Below are positions 1 through 15,005 of a DNA stretch of 64,000 nucleotides, one piece after another. Position 1 is the first letter of the stretch, and each line of letters opens with the position of its first letter. The translations under genes and the position numbers were made by a program. The notes under the pieces are model-generated. The model was not told the DNA's origin. It did not search any database and worked only from the letters and a program-made list of their open reading frames with translations. The stretch is from Mycolicibacterium doricum (lineage in GTDB: Bacteria > Actinomycetota > Actinomycetes > Mycobacteriales > Mycobacteriaceae): positions 1,364,001-1,428,000 of the forward strand of contig NZ_AP022605.1 in assembly GCF_010728155.1 (NCBI RefSeq), read 5' to 3'.

Positions 1-978
1 CGGGTGCATTGGCGTTCGGGTCGGCGGTGGGCGCCGTCGTTCCGGTTCCCCGAGGGCAACAAGATGGTGGTGGAGAAGCTCAGCTGCAAACATGCGCGGG
101 TGAAGCTGCCCAAGCTTGGGTGGGTGAAATTCCGGGCGTCACGCAGCCTGCAGGGGGAAACCGTCCGCTCGGCCACCCTGTCGCGGGACGGTGCGCACTG
201 GTTCGTGTCGTTGCTCGTCGACGACGGGATCGCGGCCCCGGCAGAGCACGCCGCCCCGGGGACCGCGGTGGGGGTGGATCGTGGTGTGGTGGCGGTGGCC
301 ACCAGCGACGGTGAGCTGGCTGACCGGGAGTTCGTCACGACCGGTGAACGCCGCCGCCTGGTAGCGCTGCAACGCAGGCTGTCCCGCGCGGCCAAGGGGT
401 CGGCAAACCGCACCAAGACCCGGCGGGCTCTGGCGAAGTTGCGGGCCACTGAGCGGCACCGCCGCCAGGATTTCTGCGTCCAGACCGCGCACCGCCTGGC
501 CCAGTCGAACGCAGTCGTGGTGCTCGAAGATCTCAAGACCCGCAACATGACGCGCCGTGCTGCTCGGGTCGAAGATCCCGGCAACGCCGGGGCGTTCCTG
601 CCGAACGGCGCGTCGAGTAAATCCGGTTTGAATCGGGCTGTACTGGGGAAAGGATGGTATCGGTTCGAGCAAGCGTTGAGGTCTGTGTCGCGTTATGCCG
701 GGACACAGGTGATCAAGGTTCCGGCGGCCTTCACGTCGCAACGGTGTCCGGTGTGTGGGCATGTTGACCCGGAATCCCGTGAGAGCCAAGCGGTGTTTCG
801 GTGCACAAACTGCCCGCACGGGCCCGTACACGCTGATGTGAACGCCGCCAAGAATGTATTGGCCGCAGGGCTTGCGGTCACCGCCTGCCGAGAAACCACA
901 GCGCCTGCGGGTGTTGCGGTGACGTCGACGCAGGAACCAGCAGGAAACCGCGAGGAATTACTGCTCCAACCCGTCTAA
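1..978 (+). CDS. tnpB: TnpB-family RNA-guided nuclease of an IS200/IS605-type element, 5' truncated by window edge
   Basis: The reading frame is open from base 1, so the N-terminus lies outside the window. Numbering residues from the GTG at base 4, the split RuvC-like active site is visible: Asp92 in GVDRG, Glu175 in VVLEDLKTRNM, and Asp278 in HADVNAAKN. A four-cysteine zinc ribbon (C248, C251, C267, C270) lies between the second and third catalytic residues, as in the OrfB/TnpB family. Family knowledge: TnpB proteins are guided by an RNA made from the element's right end and help the transposon persist at its donor site. No TnpA transposase is visible here; it may be upstream or absent. The gene ends about 40 bp before the element's right end. 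All three catalytic acidic residues are present, so the nuclease looks intact where it can be seen. Confidence 0.92.
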   Translation, partial: RVHWRSGRRWAPSFRFPEGNKMVVEKLSCKHARVKLPKLGWVKFRASRSLQGETVRSATLSRDGAHWFVSLLVDDGIAAPAEHAAPGTAVGVDRGVVAVATSDGELADREFVTTGERRRLVALQRRLSRAAKGSANRTKTRRALAKLRATERHRRQDFCVQTAHRLAQSNAVVVLEDLKTRNMTRRAARVEDPGNAGAFLPNGASSKSGLNRAVLGKGWYRFEQALRSVSRYAGTQVIKVPAAFTSQRCPVCGHVDPESRESQAVFRCTNCPHGPVHADVNAAKNVLAAGLAVTACRETTAPAGVAVTSTQEPAGNREELLLQPV

Positions 979-1523: not shown

Positions 1524-2744
1524 ATGCCCGCAACGGATCCGGTCCGGCCGCTCGCCGGCGTGCGCATCGTCGAGATCTCCAGCTTCGTGGCGGTACCGCT
1601 GGCGGGGATGACGTTGACGCAGCTGGGTGCCGAAGTGATCCGTGTCGATCCGGTCGGGGGCGCCGCCGACTACCGGCGCTGGCCGGTCACCGACGCCGGG
1701 GACAGCATCTACTGGGCTGGCTTGAACAAGGGCAAGCGTTCGGTCGCCGTGGACATGCGCAGTGCCGAAGGTCAGGAGCTGGTGGCCCGCCTGATCGTCG
1801 AAGCCGGGGTGTTGATCACCAACGTCGGTGGGCGGCAGTGGTGTTCGTACGACACGCTGGCGTCCCATCGCCGGGATCTCATCCACGTCGAAGTCTCGGG
1901 GCGCGCCGACGGCGGCACCGCGGTGGATTACACCGTCAACGCGGCCACCGGGTTCCCCCTGGTGACGGGACCGCCCGAACTGGCCGCCCCGGTCAACCAC
2001 GTGCTGCCGGCGTGGGACGTGTCCTGCGGACTGTATGCCGCGCTGGCAGTCACCACCGCCCTGCGCCGCCGCGACACCGCCGGCGCCGGCGCCCGGATCA
2101 GCATCGCACTGGAAAACGTCGCGCTGGCCACCGCGGGCAACCTCGCATTCCTCACCGAGGCGATGGTGACTGCGCAATCGCGTCCGCGCCTGGGCAACTC
2201 GCTCTACGGCACCTACGGGCAGAACTTCCTCACCGGCGATGGTGCCGCGTTCATGGTGGTGGCGCTGACCAATCGGCACTTCCGCGACCTCACCGAACTG
2301 ACCGGGACCGCCGCCGCCGTCGGCGCACTGGGTGGCGCACTCGGCGCCGACTTCACCGACGAAGGGGACCGCTACCGTCACCGTGACGCGCTGACCGGGT
2401 TGTTCACCGTCTGGTTCAGTGCTCACACCGCTGACGAGGTGGCGTCGGCGCTGTCGGGCACGTCGGTGTTGTGGGAGCGCTACCGCAGCTTCGCGGAAGT
2501 GGCAGCCGACGACCGGGTCACCCACAATCCGCTCTTCACCGCACTCGACCAACCGCGCGTCGGCCGCTACCTGGCTCCCGGGCTGCCGGTGGCGATCGAC
2601 GGCACCTATCCGCCCGCCGTGGCCGCGCCCGCGCTGGGTGACGACACCGCGGACGTCCTCACCGAGTGGCTCGGTATCACCGCCGAGGAGTTCGATCGAA
2701 TGGCCGAATCAGGCTCGGTGGCAACAGGGTCGGACGGAGCATGA
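1524..2744 (+). CDS. CaiB/BaiF family III CoA-transferase-like protein (2-methylfumaryl-CoA isomerase-like)
   Basis: A 406-residue member of the family III CoA-transferases. These move or shuffle CoA between carboxylates through an aspartyl-CoA thioester. The N-terminus has the typical PLAGVRIVEISSFVAVPLAGMTL core and LGAEVIRVDP strand, and VDYTVNAATGFP at residues 134-145 resembles the subgroup acting as intramolecular CoA-transferase on mesaconyl-type CoA esters. That specific assignment is inference. The start ATG follows the broken E1 gene by 21 nt. The stop overlaps the following thioesterase start (ATGA), so the two are probably translated together. A CoA-ester transferase next to an acyl-CoA thioesterase points to a short-chain CoA metabolism unit of unknown substrate. 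Confidence 0.82.
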   Translation: MPATDPVRPLAGVRIVEISSFVAVPLAGMTLTQLGAEVIRVDPVGGAADYRRWPVTDAGDSIYWAGLNKGKRSVAVDMRSAEGQELVARLIVEAGVLITNVGGRQWCSYDTLASHRRDLIHVEVSGRADGGTAVDYTVNAATGFPLVTGPPELAAPVNHVLPAWDVSCGLYAALAVTTALRRRDTAGAGARISIALENVALATAGNLAFLTEAMVTAQSRPRLGNSLYGTYGQNFLTGDGAAFMVVALTNRHFRDLTELTGTAAAVGALGGALGADFTDEGDRYRHRDALTGLFTVWFSAHTADEVASALSGTSVLWERYRSFAEVAADDRVTHNPLFTALDQPRVGRYLAPGLPVAIDGTYPPAVAAPALGDDTADVLTEWLGITAEEFDRMAESGSVATGSDGA

Positions 2745-3556
2745 GCCGCCTGCTCGAGCTTCTCGACGTGGCCGCAGGGAAGGGGGTGGACACCTGGGTC
2801 GGGATGCCGAGCGGCCCGGCGGACAAACGTGCCTACGGCGGTCAATTCGCTGCGCAGAGCCTCGCCGCGGCCGCGCGCACCGTGGACTCCGACCGGCCGC
2901 CGACCAACATGCACCTGCAGTTCCTGCGCGGCGGTGAGGCGGGCGATCCGGTGCACTACGACGTCACCGCCGTGTACGACGGCCGTACCGCGGCATGCCG
3001 CCGCGTCGAATCCCGCCAGGCCGGCCGGCTGCTGACCACCGCGACGGTGTCGTTCGCCGTCCCCATGTCGGGTCCCGAACACGGCCGCCGCCGGATTCCC
3101 GCACCGGGCCCGGACGTCCTGGAGCCGACGGGACCGCCCGGCCCGGCGCCGTCGGTGCCGCTCGACGAACTCGACCTCCGCGTCGCCGACGAAGGCTCCG
3201 GTGAGGATTTCGTGCGCCGGTTGTGGTGGCGCGCCACCGTGGCGCTCCCCGACGATCCGTTGCTGCACACCCTTATCACGGTCTACGTCACCGACCTCTA
3301 CATGATCGACCCGGCCTTGCAGGTGCACCGTCATTCCATGCGGGCGCGGACCCATCGCAGCGGCACCACCGATTCTTCGGTGTGGTTTCACCAACCGGTG
3401 CGCGCCGACGAGTGGAACGTGCTGGAGTCCACCTCACCCGCCGCCGCCCGCGGCCGTGGGGTGGTCACCGCGAGCCTGGTCCGCGCCGACGGCGTCATCG
3501 CCGCGACCCTGGCGCAGGAGGGTCTCATCGCCGAGCGGGAAACTCGGCCGCGCTGA
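2741..3556 (+). CDS. Acyl-CoA thioesterase II (TesB-like, double hotdog)
   Basis: 271 residues with two hotdog-type halves. The first carries RAYGGQFAAQSLAAA and NMHLQFLRGGEAGDPVHYDV, the second carries VYVTDLYMIDPAL and SVWFHQPVRADEW, all typical of the TesB/Acot8 family that hydrolyses acyl-CoA to free acid and CoA in the cytosol. Start ATG at 2741 was chosen because it overlaps the upstream stop as ATGA and gives the expected N-terminus (LLELLDV). A longer in-frame start is possible but would lie inside the CoA-transferase gene. The 3' end overlaps the convergent adenylation-acyltransferase gene by 32 bp, an antisense overlap. Confidence 0.88.
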   Translation: MSRLLELLDVAAGKGVDTWVGMPSGPADKRAYGGQFAAQSLAAAARTVDSDRPPTNMHLQFLRGGEAGDPVHYDVTAVYDGRTAACRRVESRQAGRLLTTATVSFAVPMSGPEHGRRRIPAPGPDVLEPTGPPGPAPSVPLDELDLRVADEGSGEDFVRRLWWRATVALPDDPLLHTLITVYVTDLYMIDPALQVHRHSMRARTHRSGTTDSSVWFHQPVRADEWNVLESTSPAAARGRGVVTASLVRADGVIAATLAQEGLIAERETRPR

Positions 3557-6014
3557 TGGCCGGCCTGCGGTCGCGCAGCCGCCGGCGGAGCAGCGTGAGC
3601 GCCTGGGTCAGCAGCACACCCACCGCGATCGATGCCGCGACGCCCAGCACCGGGTGTCCCTCGAACAAGGCGTAAACCTGGAAGTGCGTGAGATAGGTGT
3701 AGAGCGAGGCCTCGGCGATGACGCCAGCGAGGACCGTCAACCCGGCCGGGCAGCGCAGCGCCGGCAACCAGATCAGCAGCATGAAGCCCGAGAGCACCAG
3801 TACCTCGCGGTTGGTGTCCCCGAAATACCCGGACAACCCGACCACCAGGGCCACGGTGACCGCGATTCGCTGCCACGGCGTGCGGGCCTTTGCGGCCGCC
3901 CATCCGGCCGCGAAGAACCAGAAGGTCAGCATCGTGAACCACGCTTCGCGGCCCAGTTCAAGCCCGAGTACGTCGTAGCGCAGTGCCAACCCGGCGGCCA
4001 GGAACACCACGGCGAACTCGAACGGCCACCGCCGCTCGGCGCGGTCGGCGGCCGGCAGCACCATCAACACCGCCAGCGCGACCAGGATCCACACCAGAAC
4101 CTCGACGAACCACAGCCGCCCGGCGGTCATACTGTCGTGCGGACCGAGGAACTTGTTGGCCAGCAACAGGTTCCACAGGTGATAGTCCTCGGTGACCAAC
4201 ATGGCGATCGCCACCCACACCACCGATGGGACAGCGATCGAGGCGATCGCGGTGCGCAGATGCTGCACCCGCTGCGCGCGGGATGCGGGTGTGAGGCAGA
4301 ACCGGCCGAAGTTGTACCCCGCGATGCCGAGCAGCACATGCGCCCCGCCCCACAGTTCGAACAGCGTGGCGTGCGACCCGACGATCAGCACGATCGCGAC
4401 GGCGCGTAGCGCGACGCTGGTCTCCAGGGTGGCCGTCCAGCGTCGGCGCGGCGGTACCGCACGGGCCTGCAGGTCGCGCAGGGGGATGCGCTGCCAGTCG
4501 GTGGGAAGCCGGCCCAGCGCACGTTCCAGGCGGACCGACGTCGCCACGTACGTCAGCGAGTTGCCGCCGAGGTCGATGAAGCTGGCGGCCGGGTCGATGG
4601 CGTCCTCCTCCAGGTGCAGGACCTCGGCGAAGACCGTCGTCAGGTCGGCGGTCGGCGGGGAGTCTTCGACGGGGGCCGCCAACGCCCGCACCGCCGGGTA
4701 GTCCGGCTTGCCGGTCGGCAGCATCGGCAGCTCGTCGACGGCGACGGCGTGTACCGCGCTCGACGGCACGCCCGCGGCCTCGGCGGCCAGTTGCGCCACT
4801 TGCGCCGGGCGGTGTCGTGCGGCCGCGGCGACGACGAGGCGGTCGTCGAGGTCGGTGCACAACGCGGGCACGCCGCGGTCGCGCAACGCCGTCTCGATCC
4901 GCTGCAGATCGATGCGAAGGCCGTATATCTTGACGAACCGGCTGCTGCGGCCGATCACCTCGTAGAGGCCGTCCGGCCGGCGGCGGGCGATGTCGCCGGT
5001 GTGCAGCGCATCGACCTCGACGCCGCGCGACAGATCGACCGAACTGTGTGCGTAGCCCATCATCACGTTGTCGCCGCGGTACACGAGTTCGCCCGCGGCA
5101 TCGTCGGCCGGCCAGCCGTCGAGCGGTTCGATCGTGAACGACCCGCCCGGGATCGGCACGCCGATGCAGCCGGGATACGCGGCGGCGAGGTGGGGTGGGA
5201 GGTAGGCCATGCGGGCGGTGGCTTCCGTGGCGCCGTACATCACGATCAGTTGCCAGCCGCGCGTGGCGCCGAGTTGGGCGTAGCGTCGCACCTGCTCGGG
5301 TGCCAACCGTCCACCGGCCTGGGTGATGTAGCGCAGATCCGGCAGGTCCATGGCGCCGAAGCCGACGCGGTCGAGCAGATCGAACGTGTACGGCACGCCG
5401 GCGAAGGTAGTGCCGCCGTGGCGGCGGAACAACGCCCAGAACTCGTCGTCGACCACGGAGTGTTCGGTGAGGATGACTGCGGCGCCGCGCAGCAGATGAC
5501 TGTGGATCACCGACAGGCCGTAGCAATACGACATCGGCAGTGTCGTCGCGGCGCGATCGGTTCGGCGGATGCCGAGGTAGTCGGCGATCGCGTGGGCGTT
5601 GCTGAGAAGGTTGCCCCGCGACAGCCGGACCAGCTTCGGCGAGCCGGTGCTGCCCGACGTCGACAGCAGCAGCGCGAGGTCGTCGTGCAAATCGTGCACG
5701 CTGCCGGCGCGGCGTTGGTGCAGGCCGGCCCCGTCGACGACGACGTCGGGGTCGTAGGAAGCCGTCAATTCACCGTGGTCGCGTCCCGCCGGGACGGGCA
5801 GCACCACGTGGCCACCGGCGAGCGCCCCCAGGTAGTGCACCAGCGCCGAGACGTCGTTGCGGGTCTCGAGCATCACCAGGCGACGGGTGCCCCCCAGACG
5901 AGCGGCGACCTCGGACACCCGGTCGGCGAGTCCGCCGTAGGACAGCCGCTGCGAGTCGGTGCCCACAGCGGTTCGACTCCCCTGTGCGCGCAGGTGGTCG
6001 ACAAGGCGGCTCAT
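3525..6014 (-). CDS. Single-chain adenylation - carrier - membrane acyltransferase protein
   Basis: 829 residues in three parts. Residues ~1-450 are an AMP-binding adenylation domain with the P-loop-like STSGSTGSPK, MYGATEATARM, the ALHTGD hinge motif and catalytic Lys436 in LPTGKPDYP. Residues ~460-525 are a phosphopantetheine carrier domain with Ser486 in DLGGNSLT. Residues ~535-815 are an acyltransferase-3-type membrane domain with LRAVAIVLIVGSHATLF (His548), about ten hydrophobic segments and a terminal TYLTHFQVY. By analogy with the DltA-DltC-DltB relay, the protein should activate a carboxylic acid, hold it as a thioester and hand it to an envelope or small-molecule acceptor at the membrane; acid and acceptor are unknown. 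Start ATG 6014 overlaps the stop of the upstream ABC ATPase gene (ATGA), so it is translationally coupled to the iron importer. Confidence 0.85.
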   Translation of the reverse strand: MSRLVDHLRAQGSRTAVGTDSQRLSYGGLADRVSEVAARLGGTRRLVMLETRNDVSALVHYLGALAGGHVVLPVPAGRDHGELTASYDPDVVVDGAGLHQRRAGSVHDLHDDLALLLSTSGSTGSPKLVRLSRGNLLSNAHAIADYLGIRRTDRAATTLPMSYCYGLSVIHSHLLRGAAVILTEHSVVDDEFWALFRRHGGTTFAGVPYTFDLLDRVGFGAMDLPDLRYITQAGGRLAPEQVRRYAQLGATRGWQLIVMYGATEATARMAYLPPHLAAAYPGCIGVPIPGGSFTIEPLDGWPADDAAGELVYRGDNVMMGYAHSSVDLSRGVEVDALHTGDIARRRPDGLYEVIGRSSRFVKIYGLRIDLQRIETALRDRGVPALCTDLDDRLVVAAAARHRPAQVAQLAAEAAGVPSSAVHAVAVDELPMLPTGKPDYPAVRALAAPVEDSPPTADLTTVFAEVLHLEEDAIDPAASFIDLGGNSLTYVATSVRLERALGRLPTDWQRIPLRDLQARAVPPRRRWTATLETSVALRAVAIVLIVGSHATLFELWGGAHVLLGIAGYNFGRFCLTPASRAQRVQHLRTAIASIAVPSVVWVAIAMLVTEDYHLWNLLLANKFLGPHDSMTAGRLWFVEVLVWILVALAVLMVLPAADRAERRWPFEFAVVFLAAGLALRYDVLGLELGREAWFTMLTFWFFAAGWAAAKARTPWQRIAVTVALVVGLSGYFGDTNREVLVLSGFMLLIWLPALRCPAGLTVLAGVIAEASLYTYLTHFQVYALFEGHPVLGVAASIAVGVLLTQALTLLRRRLRDRRPAISAAEFPARR

Positions 6015-7066
6015 GTCAGCACCGCTCCGTGACCCACCACCTGGATGCGCACCTTGGCTTCGACCGGCGGCGGGGCGAGGCTGTTCTGCCGCACGACGAT
6101 CGGTGCGGCGTCGCCGTCCGGGTCGATCGTCAACAGCACGTCGTGGCCGAGGAATTCGGTGGCGATGACGGTTCCGAGGCCGTCGAGCTGGAGCTGTCCA
6201 CTGTCGGAGACCACGGTCGCGACGAGTTGTTCGGGGCGCAGCACGAGGGTGCCCGGACCGTCGTCGGCCGTCACCGGGATGCGCCCGAGCGCGCTGTCGG
6301 CCACGTTGGCCGAAACGGTGCACGGCAGGGTGATGCAGTCGCCGAGGAACTCGGCGGTGAACCGGTCCACCGGTTGGCGGTAGACCTGTTCGGGCGTGCC
6401 CACCTGGGTGAAGCGGCCGTCGCGCATGACCGCCACCTGGTCGGCGACCGACAGCGCCTCCTCCTGGTCGTGGGTCACCAGCAGCGTGGTCACCCCGGCC
6501 CGGGTGAGGAGGCCCGCGACGGCCTTTCGGGTGGACGCACGCAGGCCGGTGTCCAAGGCGCTGAACGGTTCGTCGAGCAGCATCAGGTTCGGTTCACGGG
6601 CCAGTGCGCGGGCCAGCGCGACGCGCTGCTGCTGACCGCCCGACAGTTGGTGAGGACGGCGCGAGGCGAGACCGGGCTCAAGGGACACGGTTTCGAGCAG
6701 TTCGGCCACCCGGGTGCGCACCGCGGAGCGTCGGGCGGTACCGGACAGGCCGTAGGCGACGTTCTGGCCCACCGTCAGGTGGGGGAAGAGGGCACCGTCC
6801 TGGGCGACGTATCCGACGCTGCGGCGGTGCGGCGGCACCGCGCTCGTCGCGCTGGCGACCTGCCGGCCGGCGATGGCGATCGTCCCGGCGTCGGGGGTCT
6901 CGAACCCGGCGATCAGACGCAACAGGGTGGTCTTTCCGCATCCGGACGCTCCGACGATGGCGGTGAGACTGCCCTGGGTGAGATCGAGGTCGATGTGATC
7001 GAGCACCGTGTGGCCGTGGAACGTCTTCGCGAGCGCACGGGCTTCGAGCATGGCGGGGCCGGTCAC
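6011..7066 (-). CDS. fbpC: Fe(III)-type ABC importer ATP-binding protein
   Basis: 351 residues. Walker A GASGCGKT (residues 39-46), signature QLSGGQQQR, Walker B LMLLDEPFSALD and switch VTHDQEEAL are complete. A C-terminal TOBE-like regulatory extension (from about residue 250, LVLRPEQLV) makes it the length of FbpC/PotA-type subunits. It powers uptake through the permease encoded just upstream. The GTG start at 7066 overlaps the permease stop (GTGA); an ATG fifteen bases downstream (7051) is an alternative. The next gene starts in its stop codon, so permease, ATPase and acyltransferase form one coupled transcript. Confidence 0.9.
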   Translation of the reverse strand: MTGPAMLEARALAKTFHGHTVLDHIDLDLTQGSLTAIVGASGCGKTTLLRLIAGFETPDAGTIAIAGRQVASATSAVPPHRRSVGYVAQDGALFPHLTVGQNVAYGLSGTARRSAVRTRVAELLETVSLEPGLASRRPHQLSGGQQQRVALARALAREPNLMLLDEPFSALDTGLRASTRKAVAGLLTRAGVTTLLVTHDQEEALSVADQVAVMRDGRFTQVGTPEQVYRQPVDRFTAEFLGDCITLPCTVSANVADSALGRIPVTADDGPGTLVLRPEQLVATVVSDSGQLQLDGLGTVIATEFLGHDVLLTIDPDGDAAPIVVRQNSLAPPPVEAKVRIQVVGHGAVLT

Positions 7067-8643
7067 TGGGCGACCCCCTTCGTCGACTGCGTGAGCAGGA
7101 TCATCGTCACCGGAACCGCGAGCAGGACCAGCACCAGCGCGTACGGCGCGGCAGCCGCGTAGTCCAGTTCGCTGGCGTAGGACCAGAACAGCATCGACAG
7201 CGTGCGTGTCCCGGTGGGGGCGAGCAGCAGCGTGGCGGTCAGTTCCGTGGCCACCGCGACGAAAACCATCGAAGCGCCGGCCGCCGCCGCGGGTGCGGTG
7301 AGGCGCAATGTGACTCGCAGGAACGTCACGGTCGGGGAGCGGCCCAGCGAGCGGGACGCCTCCTCGAGGCCGGTCGGCACCTGGGCCAACCCTGCGCGCA
7401 CGTTGACCAGTGCACGCGGCATGAACAGCAGCACGTAGGCGAACACGATCAGTGCCACGCTCTGGTAGAGCGGGCGGACGACGTGGATGGTGACGGTCAC
7501 CAGCGCCAGCGCGGTGACGATGCCGGGCAGCGAACTCGTCACGTAATTGGCGCCCTCCACCGCGCGGGCGAGGAAGCCGCCCGACCGCACCGCCACCCAT
7601 GCGACGGGAAATGCCAGCACCGTCGTCAGCAGGGCCGCGGTCCCGGCTAGCGCGACAGTCTGGCCGAGTGCCGCACCGATGCCGCCGAATGCCCAGACCT
7701 CGGCGCCACCGATGTAGAGCCAGCGCAGGATCGTCCACACCGGCACGCCGAGGCCCAACACGGCCAGGGTGGCCAGCGTCAGCTGGGTGGGGATCATGGC
7801 GGGGCCCAAGTGCATCGGCGCGGCGGCACGTTGCGCCCCCGACCCGATTCTGGCGTAACGCGCCGTTCCGCGAGCGGCGGCCTCGGCGATGAGCAGCGTC
7901 AGGCACAGCAGCACCAGCACCCCGGCCAGCATGCTGCCCGCCGCGCCGTCGAACGTCACCTGGAACTGCTGGAAGATCGCGACGGTGAAGGTGTCGAAAC
8001 GCACCATGGCGAACGCACCGAACTCGGCAAGCAGATGCACCGCGATGAGCAGTCCGCCGCCGAGGATGGCGAGCCGCAACTGAGGGAGGACGACCCGGAA
8101 GAAGACCCCGGCCGAGTTGGATCCCAGCGCGCGCGCCGACTCTTCGACGGCCGGATCCAGCCGGCGCAGCGTTGCGGCCGCGGGCAGGTACACGAACGGG
8201 AAGTAGGACAGCGTGGTGACCAGGACACCGGCCCACAACCCGTGCAGCGAAGGGATGACGCCCACCCAGGCGTAGCTGTTGACGAATGCCGGCACCGCCA
8301 GCGGGGCGACGAACACCGGACGCCAGATCGCCCGGCCGGGCAGGTCGGTGCGTTCTACCACCCACGCCACACCCACGCCGATCACCACGCACAGCGGAAC
8401 GGTGAGCGCGACCAGGGCGACGGTGTTGAGCAGCAGCTCGCCGACGCGTGGCCGGACCACCAGTTCGTACGCCCGGCTCCACCCGATCGAGATCGCACCC
8501 CACACCACGTAGCCCAGCGGTATGAGTGTGGCGGCGACCAGGATCGCCACCGTGCCGGAGACCAACGGGCCGGGCCGCGCGGTCTTGTCCGACCGCGTGA
8601 CCGGTGTCGCGGGGGGCGGGATGGGCGGGGCGGCGGTGAGCAC
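7063..8643 (-). CDS. fbpB: Fe(III)-type ABC importer permease, fused two-domain
   Basis: 526 residues with about twelve membrane segments arranged as two homologous BPD-transporter domains, the form typical of FbpB/ThiP permeases. Each half has a cytoplasmic EAA loop: EESARALGSNSAGVFFRVVL in the first and EEASRSLGRSPTVTFLRVTL in the second, where the ATPase docks. Start GTG 8643 directly abuts the TAG stop of the binding-protein gene; its stop overlaps the ATPase start. Substrate is inferred as ferric iron from the binding protein and architecture; thiamine or other cargo is less likely. Confidence 0.9.
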   Translation of the reverse strand: MLTAAPPIPPPATPVTRSDKTARPGPLVSGTVAILVAATLIPLGYVVWGAISIGWSRAYELVVRPRVGELLLNTVALVALTVPLCVVIGVGVAWVVERTDLPGRAIWRPVFVAPLAVPAFVNSYAWVGVIPSLHGLWAGVLVTTLSYFPFVYLPAAATLRRLDPAVEESARALGSNSAGVFFRVVLPQLRLAILGGGLLIAVHLLAEFGAFAMVRFDTFTVAIFQQFQVTFDGAAGSMLAGVLVLLCLTLLIAEAAARGTARYARIGSGAQRAAAPMHLGPAMIPTQLTLATLAVLGLGVPVWTILRWLYIGGAEVWAFGGIGAALGQTVALAGTAALLTTVLAFPVAWVAVRSGGFLARAVEGANYVTSSLPGIVTALALVTVTIHVVRPLYQSVALIVFAYVLLFMPRALVNVRAGLAQVPTGLEEASRSLGRSPTVTFLRVTLRLTAPAAAAGASMVFVAVATELTATLLLAPTGTRTLSMLFWSYASELDYAAAAPYALVLVLLAVPVTMILLTQSTKGVAQ

Positions 8644-9672
8644 CTACAGCAAGCCAGCCTTCGTCATCAGATCGGTCACCTTCTGGGCTTCCAGCGTCGA
8701 GGGATCGACCGCGGGTGCCTGCAACGTGTCCAGCGGGGGGAGAGCGGGATTGGCGGGCACCCCGCTGGCGACCGGGTACTCGAACGAGGTCCCCTTCTCG
8801 AGGACCTCCTGGCCGGTTCTGCCGGTGACGAACGTGACGAACTGTTGCGCCTGGGCTTGCTTGTCGCTCGATTCGAGCACCCCGCCGCCGGAGAGGCTGA
8901 CGAACGCGCCGGGGTCCTCGTTCTTGAAGTAGTGCAGTGCGGTGTTGCCGCTGATCTCCTTGGTCTTCGATTGATCGCGGAACCAGTAGTAGTGGTAGAT
9001 GACGCCGCCGTCGACCTCACCGGCGTTGACGGCCTTGAGTGTGGCGATGTTGTCGTTGTAGATGACCGCGTTCTGCTTCATCCCGGCCAGCCACTGCGCC
9101 GTCGCCGGCTCGCCCTCCAACTGGAGCAGGGCGGCGACGATCGCCTGGAAGTCGGCCTTCGCCGGCGGTGCGCCCCAACGGCCCTTCCATTCGGGCCGCT
9201 GCAGATCGAGCAGGGACTTCGGCAGCTGATCGGCCGGCAGCCGGGATGGGTTGTAGACGAAGACCGTGCTGCGTGCCGCGACGCCGGTCCACTTCCCGCT
9301 GGCCGGGCGGTACGCCGCCGGCGCCTGATCGATCGTGGCGGCGTCGAGGTCGGCGAACAGCCCGGCGCGTTCGACGGCGGCCATGGCGGGTGAGTTCTCG
9401 GTCAGGAAGACGTCGGCCGGTGAGGCATCCCCCTCGGCGACCAGCTGGTTGCCCAGTTCGGCGTCGCCACCCTGACGGTAGGAGACTTCGATGCCGGTCT
9501 CCTTGGTGAAGGCGTCGATCCACTCCTTGGTCAGCGACTCATGCTGCGCGTTGTAGATCAGCAGGTCGTCGGACTCGTCAGAACCCGAGCAGGCGGCCAG
9601 ACCGCTCACCACCGCGAGGACCGACACGACGGTGACGATCGGGCGGGCGATCCGGCTCAAACGTGGTCGCAT
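8644..9672 (-). CDS. fbpA: Fe(III)-type ABC importer substrate-binding lipoprotein
   Basis: 342 residues. A signal sequence ends in the lipobox LAAC with acceptor Cys28, so the protein should be anchored outside the membrane. The mature part is a class of periplasmic ferric-binding fold: LIYNAQHESLTKEWIDAF at the start, ADVFLTENSPAM, and the tyrosine-rich YHYYWFRDQ segment that in FbpA proteins supplies the iron-coordinating tyrosines. A GGAAAGGA ribosome site lies about 9 nt before ATG 9672. First gene of the fbpA-fbpB-fbpC-acyltransferase operon; a palindrome lies about 50 bp upstream. Confidence 0.9.
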   Translation of the reverse strand: MRPRLSRIARPIVTVVSVLAVVSGLAACSGSDESDDLLIYNAQHESLTKEWIDAFTKETGIEVSYRQGGDAELGNQLVAEGDASPADVFLTENSPAMAAVERAGLFADLDAATIDQAPAAYRPASGKWTGVAARSTVFVYNPSRLPADQLPKSLLDLQRPEWKGRWGAPPAKADFQAIVAALLQLEGEPATAQWLAGMKQNAVIYNDNIATLKAVNAGEVDGGVIYHYYWFRDQSKTKEISGNTALHYFKNEDPGAFVSLSGGGVLESSDKQAQAQQFVTFVTGRTGQEVLEKGTSFEYPVASGVPANPALPPLDTLQAPAVDPSTLEAQKVTDLMTKAGLL

Positions 9673-9722
9673 TCAGTGCATCCTTTCCGCGCCCCGGGCG
9701 CTGATCTGAGGCCGTCCTAAGT

Positions 9723-14144: not shown

Positions 14145-15005
14145 GTGGCGGGACGACCGGTGCACACGTTCGAAGTGGTGCGCACGGAGCAGCTGGCACC
14201 GCACATGGTCCGTGTGGTGCTCGGTGGGAACGGAGCGAGTTCCGGCTTCGACACCTTCAAGCCCAACGAGTTCGCCGATGCCTACGTCAAGCTCGTGATC
14301 GTGCCGGATGGCGTCGACGTGTCCGCGCTGCGGACGCCGCTGACGCTCGACAGCTTCCAGGAGCTGCCCCCGGCGAAGCAGCCGGTGGTGCGGACTTACA
14401 CCGTGCGCAAGGTCGACCAGGAGCGTGGCGAGGTGACCATCGACTTCGTCGTCCACGGCGACCACGGTGTCGCCGGTCCGTGGGCCGCGTCGGCGCAGCC
14501 CGGCCAACCGGCCTACCTGATGGGCCCGAGCGGTGCCTACAGTCCCGACCCGGCGGCCGACTGGCATCTGCTCGCCGGCGACGAGTCCGCGCTCCCCGCG
14601 ATCAGCGCCGCGCTCGAGGCGCTGCCCGCCGATGCCGTCGGCCGGGTGTTCATCGAGGTCGCGGGCCCGGACGACGAGATTCCGCTGTCCGCGCCGGAGG
14701 GGGTGTCCATCAGCTGGATCTACCGCGGCGGACGCGCCGACCTGGTCCCCGAGGAGGCCGCCGGTGACCACGCCCCGCTCATCTCGGCGGTCAAGGAGGC
14801 GGCGTGGCTGCCCGGGCAGGTGCAGGTGTTCATCCACGGCGAGGCCCAGGCCGTCATGCACAACCTGCGGCCCTACATTTTCAAGGAACGCGGCGTCGAG
14901 GCCACGTGGGCGTCGTCGATCTCGGGTTACTGGCGCCGCGGCCGCACCGAGGAGACCTTCCGCCAGTGGAAGGCCGAACTGGCCAAGGCAGAAGCCGCGG
15001 GCTGA
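14145..15005 (+). CDS. Siderophore-interacting FAD reductase (SIP/ViuB family)
   Basis: 286 residues. FAD-binding barrel with RTYTVRKVD near residue 85 and a C-terminal SIP domain ([43 protein letters not shown]). The family reduces ferric siderophores in the cytosol to release iron. GTG 14145 was chosen: a GGAGG ribosome site lies 5 nt upstream; a TTG at 14133 would overlap that site. It sits between dprA and a lactate monooxygenase, as in other mycobacteria. Confidence 0.9.

Follow-up and report, generated by a model that had tools for sequence, protein, structure and literature searches.

A one-chain adenylation-carrier-acyltransferase protein encoded beside a ferric iron importer in Mycolicibacterium doricum and its possible part in iron acquisition

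What would a complete acyl-transfer enzyme be doing behind the genes of an iron importer? The question is raised by a 64,000-nucleotide stretch of the Mycolicibacterium doricum genome (NZ_AP022605.1, positions 1,364,001 to 1,428,000 of the forward strand; here called the window), in which a gene encoding adenylation, carrier and AT3-type membrane acyltransferase domains on a single polypeptide (hereafter the fusion) adjoins fbpABC, the genes of an ATP-binding cassette (ABC) transporter. A preliminary description had likened the protein to the DltA-DltC-DltB relay and had suggested that it acylates an envelope or chelator molecule linked to iron uptake. Its domains, the conservation of its catalytic residues, its linkage to the importer genes, its co-occurrence with them and the IdeR-like sites found across the family are directly supported by the results given below; that the relay actually works, and that it acylates an envelope or chelator molecule, we infer. 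On balance, we consider it probable that the fusion is a one-chain acyl relay of iron starvation, under the control of IdeR/DtxR, which supplies ferric iron by way of an extracytoplasmic acceptor.

All three domains of the fusion scored above their Pfam cut-offs: PF00501 at residues 112-324 (E 1.4e-42; 146 bits, cut-off 29.9), PF00550 at 460-504 (E 3e-8; 34.3 bits, cut-off 20.8) and PF01757 at 539-788 (E 2.3e-8; 33.9 bits, cut-off 31). The piece used as the Pfam query began 9 bases upstream of the ATG at 6014, so that its residue numbers are 3 higher. Lys436 (in PTGK), Ser486 (GGNS) and His548 (GSHA) were located where the preliminary description had placed them. In the 52 fusion proteins used for residue counts and for the tree, from which L130 and L137 (duplicates of loci L049 and L066) and the fragment L165 had been dropped, the catalytic A10 lysine Lys436, the carrier serine Ser486 and the arginines Arg268 and Arg537 were each unchanged in every protein, and His548 was kept in 51. 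A loss of adenylation or AT3 residues in homologues, which had been named as a refuting result, was thus seen in a single protein, at His548, and domains and residues together support the layout of an adenylation-carrier-acyltransferase relay on one chain.

The AT3 part resembled the acyltransferases OafB and OatA (PMC9833829, PMC9558356) in its PF01757 domain, in the R-x10-H motif of helix 1 and in the predicted transfer of an acyl group across the membrane. The essential Arg14 and His25 of this motif in OafB (PMC9833829) have their counterparts in Arg537 (52/52) and His548 (51/52) of the fusion. Unlike those enzymes, the fusion has activating and carrier domains of its own, no SGNH domain was found in it with Pfam, and the first Arg of the helix 3 RXXR motif was missing in 52 of 52 proteins, the second Arg being kept in 15 of them and Lys standing there in 1. 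Both RXXR arginines were present in 6 of the 8 ordinary AT3 proteins of the window genome, where PF01757 gave 10 matches, the two weakest being fusions. The AT3 model, for which a fold like that of the transmembrane acyltransferase HGSNAT was considered, yielded no significant Foldseek match. When the AT3 part was searched with separately, the 120 of 224 matches examined appeared to be fragments of fusions of this family (at least 56% identity in those examined), and thus no stand-alone AT3 relative that would indicate the acceptor was seen among them. The main text of a review of AT3 proteins (PMC9558356) makes no mention of AMP-binding, phosphopantetheine or iron.

Gly166 of the fusion aligned with the amino-acid-binding Asp of LgrA and was invariant in 31 of 31 aligned sequences. 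The Asp at this position is the residue that anchors the alpha-amino group. Judged by this alignment, the adenylation domain is not of the alpha-amino-acid type found in nonribosomal peptide synthetases (NRPS) and DltA, and D-alanine is an unlikely substrate. No particular acid was pointed to by the top matches of the domain, which were scattered over feruloyl-coenzyme A (CoA), o-succinylbenzoate-CoA, oxalyl-CoA, VinN and NRPS enzymes. No NCBIfam cut-off was reached by the fusion among the best 25 of 80 matches; the best match of the adenylation domain was TIGR03098 (E 3.1e-41), and membership in this family of exosortase-A-associated acyl-CoA ligases was rejected, since the score of 141 bits lies far below the cut-off of 592. 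Stand-alone relatives of the adenylation domain (36-45% identical) recurred in operons for a carrier, a short-chain dehydrogenase/reductase (SDR), a ligase, LuxE and LuxC, in which no fbp genes were found. Neighbor clusters around such a relative were shared by loci L070, L074, L075, L077, L079, L080, L084, L143 and L144, not all of them complete; at L077 the clusters were acyl carrier protein (ACP), SDR, LuxE and LuxC proteins.

The label of an Fe(III)-type transporter that had been given to the importer was borne out. Among the structures of the PDB, the fbpA protein gave E 7e-127 with YfuA and E 1.1e-125 with SfuA, three ferric-binding proteins reaching E 1.1e-125 or better, followed by HitA and FbpA. 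Its YNAQHE and YHYY stretches, which hold Fe ligands, aligned with solved ferric-binding proteins. The identity of a phosphonate transporter, to which the nearest NCBIfam names pointed (all below cut-off), was overruled by the comparison with solved structures. By these matches, the window FbpABC is predicted to transport ferric iron as a member of the SfuABC/FbpABC/HitABC importers. FbpABC importers take bare ferric iron and, to our knowledge, the described operons of this kind carry no acyl relay.

In a protein search with the fusion, 7996 candidates were scored, 7599 of them reaching E 1e-10 or better, and the best 120 were 67-100% identical. The named relatives came from Mycolicibacterium, Nocardia, Saccharothrix, Microbacterium, Phycicoccus and an Acidimicrobiales bin, with Leptolyngbya, Maricaulis and Asticcacaulis at lower identity; the best 80 of 335 related stretches were kept, and the named set is no census. 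Fusions were present in 15 of 37 genomes of the same genus. Across the phylum, 16 of 396 genomes gave a match at E<=1e-100; that of G393 covers residues 22-453, the adenylation part, only and holds a stop, and that of G273 is cut by a contig end. Another fusion gene is present in the window genome itself and follows a second fbpABC set; a recent duplication as the origin of the two copies was rejected, as it disagrees with the tree. Moritella has a split form, in which the ligase and carrier region aligned with a 550-amino-acid protein and AT3 is encoded by a gene of its own directly upstream (L071 and L072). At L072, a 737-amino-acid protein that by eye resembles a TonB-dependent receptor is encoded just before these two genes.

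Production of the fusion together with fbpABC, as had been claimed, appears likely in the window, where its ATG and the stop codon of fbpC overlap as ATGA and co-translation can be expected. Across the family, the fusion lay beside fbpABC at 29 of 49 testable loci, and thus was not usually found away from iron transport genes. The 49 are the 52 less L050, L135 and L140, in which the contig breaks off 1.4 to 2.3 kb upstream; L163, with a contig end 1.8 kb upstream, was counted as unlinked (29/48 without it), and L058, whose contig ends before fbpA, as linked by fbpB and fbpC alone. Genes in the fetched loci were called with our own GC-based scripts, which are error-prone. On the fusion tree the linkage label changed 7 times, 3 of the changes being forced by supported branches, and the arrangement varied: in mycobacteria and Saccharothrix the fusion follows fbpC, in L142 and L169 it precedes fbpA, Phycicoccus (L063) has it divergent from the fbp genes and Microbacterium (L057) has it convergent with them, and in L168 it sits within the fbp set on the opposite strand. 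The linked FbpA proteins were of at least two kinds, either near that of the window or 33-37% identical (L059, L061, L139, L168 and L169).

Unlinked fusions lay, by eye, among unrelated genes that were often housekeeping-like, so that both the acid and its acceptor are probably common constituents of the cell. An exception was L140 (1-5289, minus strand), where the fusion directly precedes a large ligase-ketosynthase-acyltransferase polyketide gene running off the contig. By neighbor clustering or by eye, no partner gene recurred with unlinked fusions outside a mycobacterial thioesterase neighborhood, and no exporter recurred beside the fusion, most neighbors not having been searched against family libraries. 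The thioesterase gene, convergent with the fusion in the window (2666-3556) and assigned at the Pfam level to the acyl-CoA thioesterases, also borders the fusion where mycobacterial loci lack fbpABC (L049, L062, L126, L129 and others); thus, it looks like old synteny outside the system.

The distribution of the two components was in agreement with the linkage. In the same genus, FbpA at E<=1e-60 was found in 15 of 15 genomes with the fusion and in 3 of 22 without it. In four of those 15 (G018, G026, G027 and G036) the fusion and the fbp genes are apart, and the latter belong to the other kind (FbpA 37-40% identical); the G018 fusion is near a contig end, and the fbp contig of G027 ends inside fbpB. 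In the phylum draw, FbpA of the window type (E<=1e-100) occurred in 6 of 396 genomes, all 6 with a fusion match (chance 1.6e-9, relatedness ignored); in G068 and G143 the fusion and the window-type FbpA are far apart. With FbpA at E<=1e-60, the phylum counts were 7/16 for fusion carriers and 33/380 for the others (Fisher 4e-4, uncorrected for relatedness). The association of the fusion with FbpA is real but far from strict.

Iron control was assessed with two patterns from PMC8464063, TTAGGTTAGSCTAACCTAA as the consensus of IdeR and TTAGGNNNNCCTAA as its one-dimer half-site; that paper reports bound IdeR sites with two, three and six mismatches. The region scanned ran from 300 bases before to 40 bases after the start of fbpA, or of the fusion gene in loci without a recognized fbpA, the starts being taken from alignments. 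For the control, 538 regions upstream of other genes in the same loci were used. Half-sites of at least 9/10 were found in 18 of 54 regions, compared with 0 of 538 controls, and strict full sites of at least 14/19 in 28 of 54, compared with 1 of 538, where the 54 include the duplicates L130 and L137 and relatedness is uncorrected. Most of the better sites fell in the 120 bases that precede the start codon. Among 18 actinobacterial fusion regions with no fbpABC found beside them, 9 carried a full site scoring 14/19 or better, and another 3 had a 9/10 half-site, the clearest being L159 and L167 (16/19) and L162, L160 and L140 (10/10 half-sites); thus, even without importer genes beside it, the enzyme seems to be part of the iron-starvation set. 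The candidate site of the window lies at about the distance of better sites in relatives, and L046-L048, L052 and L054 have 9/10 sites at 46-61 bases; the window's half-site score was equaled in 1% of shuffles. A 13/19 full site belongs to the second operon of the window genome, and two DtxR-type PF02742 proteins are encoded in that genome. With these sites and the co-occurrence, the proposed iron-uptake link proved broader than the preliminary description had assumed, holding across gene orders and strands, though it is not strict.

The complete genome of the window strain (4.03 Mb) gave one weak condensation-domain match (E 3.5e-17), and 5 to at least 22 such matches were obtained in the other same-genus genomes of at least 90% completeness. 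Judged by condensation domains, no NRPS siderophore pathway is therefore evident in it, and the strain appears to be a mycobacterium that lacks siderophores of this type. Each of its three nearest relatives has 8-10 condensation domains, so the scarcity is a feature of this strain. That fusion carriers in general have lost siderophores was rejected, since 7 to at least 22 condensation matches were obtained in the 14 other carriers of the genus. The sole PF08021 siderophore-interacting match of the genome (E 2.3e-34) lies in the window at 14172-14537 (plus strand), in a 295-amino-acid frame.

In the reading that we favor, the adenylation domain would use ATP to activate a small carboxylic acid other than an alpha-amino acid, and the acyl group would be loaded onto the phosphopantetheine arm of the fusion's own carrier domain. 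The AT3 domain would take it from the tethered arm via its membrane pore, using carrier-bound acyl instead of acyl-CoA, and would pass it to an acceptor at the outside of the cytoplasmic membrane. IdeR/DtxR would repress the fusion gene together with, or parallel to, the FbpABC importer, and the acylated product would supply ferric iron to FbpA. As to the form of the product, we prefer an envelope glycan or lipid with acyl groups holding or releasing Fe(III), a diffusible chelator being a close second, because the well-characterized AT3 enzymes act mostly on extracytoplasmic sugars (PMC9558356). More tentatively, and with doubt prevailing, this may be a one-gene iron route that is neither an NRPS siderophore nor an NRPS-independent (NIS) one, in which an IdeR-controlled adenylation-carrier-AT3 protein would add ferric-binding acyl groups to an extracytoplasmic molecule and so feed FbpABC in Gram-positive cells, as the main ferric route in the window genome.

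A number of results weigh against these proposals. In OafB simulations (PMC9833829), the counterpart of Arg537 also touches the 3'-phosphate of CoA, and Arg537 is kept here. That the AT3 domain no longer uses CoA is only suggested, because of this residue, because of the second RXXR Arg in 15 of 52 proteins, and because ordinary AT3 proteins also deviate: 2 of the 8 in the window genome lack the first RXXR Arg as well, a ninth, from L058, has neither, and a gap-free test finds the motif in only 5 of the 9. The sole exception at His548, the homologue at L134 (5271-7784, minus strand), has Arg in its place; it stands beside nearly full-length fbpABC matches. Away from fbpABC lie 20 of the 49 testable loci. 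No FbpA at E<=1e-60 was found in 9 of the 16 fusion carriers of the phylum, and no fusion match in 33 of the 40 phylum genomes with such an FbpA; in the nearer draw, G012, G051, G055 and G056 have FbpA of the window type (E<=1e-100) and no fusion, G012 having fbpABC without it. The window's own site is weak (9/10 as a half-site, 12/19 as a strict full site), near-consensus 19-mers showed no excess in its genome (11, compared with 13 in the backwards control), and no IdeR-like site was found upstream in L056, L062, L142, L163 and L169. Nor was any Fur-like site above shuffles found in five cyanobacterial or alphaproteobacterial relatives and three Moritella loci; thus, iron may not be the role in the Gram-negative and cyanobacterial relatives.

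Several of these results would also suit other explanations. The enzyme might esterify or amidate a common metabolite into a small diffusible ferric ligand, from which FbpA takes the iron, and would then resemble the AsbC-AsbD-AsbE relay of petrobactin in a fused, membrane-bound form. Such a one-gene chelator, which we hold to be unlikely although it deserves serious attention, agrees with the IdeR-like sites before fusions away from fbpABC, with the lack of a recurring partner outside the thioesterase neighborhood, so that one enzyme may suffice, and with the absence of an evident NRPS pathway as judged by condensation domains. It fits poorly with the absence of a recurring exporter in the neighbor clustering, with the 8-10 condensation domains kept by the three nearest relatives, and with the mostly extracytoplasmic sugar substrates of AT3 proteins (PMC9558356). 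General acylation of the envelope under iron starvation, for permeability, charge or phage protection and with no delivery of iron, is in our view rather less likely again; the linkage to fbpABC would then reflect shared regulation only. The commonness of envelope modification by AT3 proteins (same source), the 20/49 unlinked fusions and the 9/16 carriers without FbpA at E<=1e-60 are what it would lead one to expect, but the repeated adjacency in varied orders, the divergent FbpA types (near the window's, or 33-37%) and the co-occurrence when unlinked are more than shared regulation needs.

Two further explanations carry little weight. Transfer of D-alanine or another amino acid onto an anionic polymer, as by a Dlt-like system, would share the order of steps (activation, carrier loading, transfer across the membrane), but it is improbable, given an AT3 transferase where DltB is a membrane-bound O-acyltransferase (MBOAT) protein, and given Gly166 in place of the amino-acid Asp in the LgrA alignment, invariant in 31/31. 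Hardly credible is an ordinary lipid or secondary-metabolism enzyme that came to stand behind fbpC by accident; while the operons of the 36-45% identical stand-alone relatives, with no fbp genes found, would allow for it, the 29/49 linked loci, the half-sites (18/54 versus 0/538) and the co-occurrence tests speak against it.

With the favored reading of an iron-starvation relay, the fusion belongs with the carrier-dependent acyl relays, and the layout of DltA-DltC-DltB ascribed to it did not hold beyond a likeness of logic. In both systems, adenylation activates an acid, phosphopantetheine carries it and the membrane is crossed; the fusion differs in being one chain, in its AT3 rather than MBOAT transferase, in its non-alpha-amino-acid pocket and in its iron-type control sites. 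The petrobactin siderophore pathway shares with it acid activation, carrier and transferase in AsbC-AsbD-AsbE, which are soluble, separate proteins with another transferase. A ligase and an acyltransferase are also joined on one chain in the bifunctional Aas-type acyl-ACP synthetase/phospholipid acyltransferases, NCBIfam matches to which were below cut-off; these have a PlsC-type transferase and no built-in carrier.

The features of the locus are collected in Table 1. The full open reading frame of the fusion spans 3525-6323 (minus strand), with the ATG at 6014 as the likely start and the stretch from 6323 as an upstream extension overlapping fbpC. Near the window edge, a frame at 4-978 (plus strand) encodes what looks like a TnpB-type transposase protein.

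Table 1. Positions of the fusion gene, the importer genes and the candidate control site in the window
Feature	Position	Strand	Basis or remark
Fusion gene, 829 amino acids	3525..6014	minus	Pfam domains; approximate limits: adenylation ~1-447, carrier ~455-515 (Ser486), AT3 ~519-829 (Arg537, His548, His777)
Ser486 codon, predicted phosphopantetheine attachment site	4557..4559	minus	Computed from the ATG at 6014; Ser in 52/52 homologues
His548 codon, R-x10-H motif, first AT3 helix	4371..4373	minus	Computed from the ATG at 6014
fbpC, ABC ATPase with TOBE domain	6011..7063	minus	Stop overlaps the fusion start
fbpB, fused double ABC permease	7063..8643	minus	PF00528, two stretches
fbpA, ferric-iron-binding lipoprotein, SfuA/YfuA type	8644..9672	minus	PDB matches to YfuA and SfuA
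Candidate IdeR half-site TTAGGACGGCCTCA, 9/10 specified bases	9707..9720	minus	Begins 48 bases before the fbpA start codon

No published description of the fusion or of its regulation was found among the papers listed, as judged by titles and abstract starts in mostly non-subscription literature. Within that scope, the fusion would be the first AT3 protein found with a built-in carrier, and it would offer a test of whether AT3 enzymes can use carrier-bound acyl in place of acyl-CoA. Being conserved, of defined chemistry and preceded by iron-type control sites, the enzyme would give a direct handle on how ferric iron is presented to FbpABC when a cell has neither an outer membrane nor a siderophore. 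Since its gene is often found beside a ferric importer and has candidate iron-starvation control sites, the fusion may belong to an undescribed way of obtaining iron, in a mycobacterium and in many other actinobacteria.
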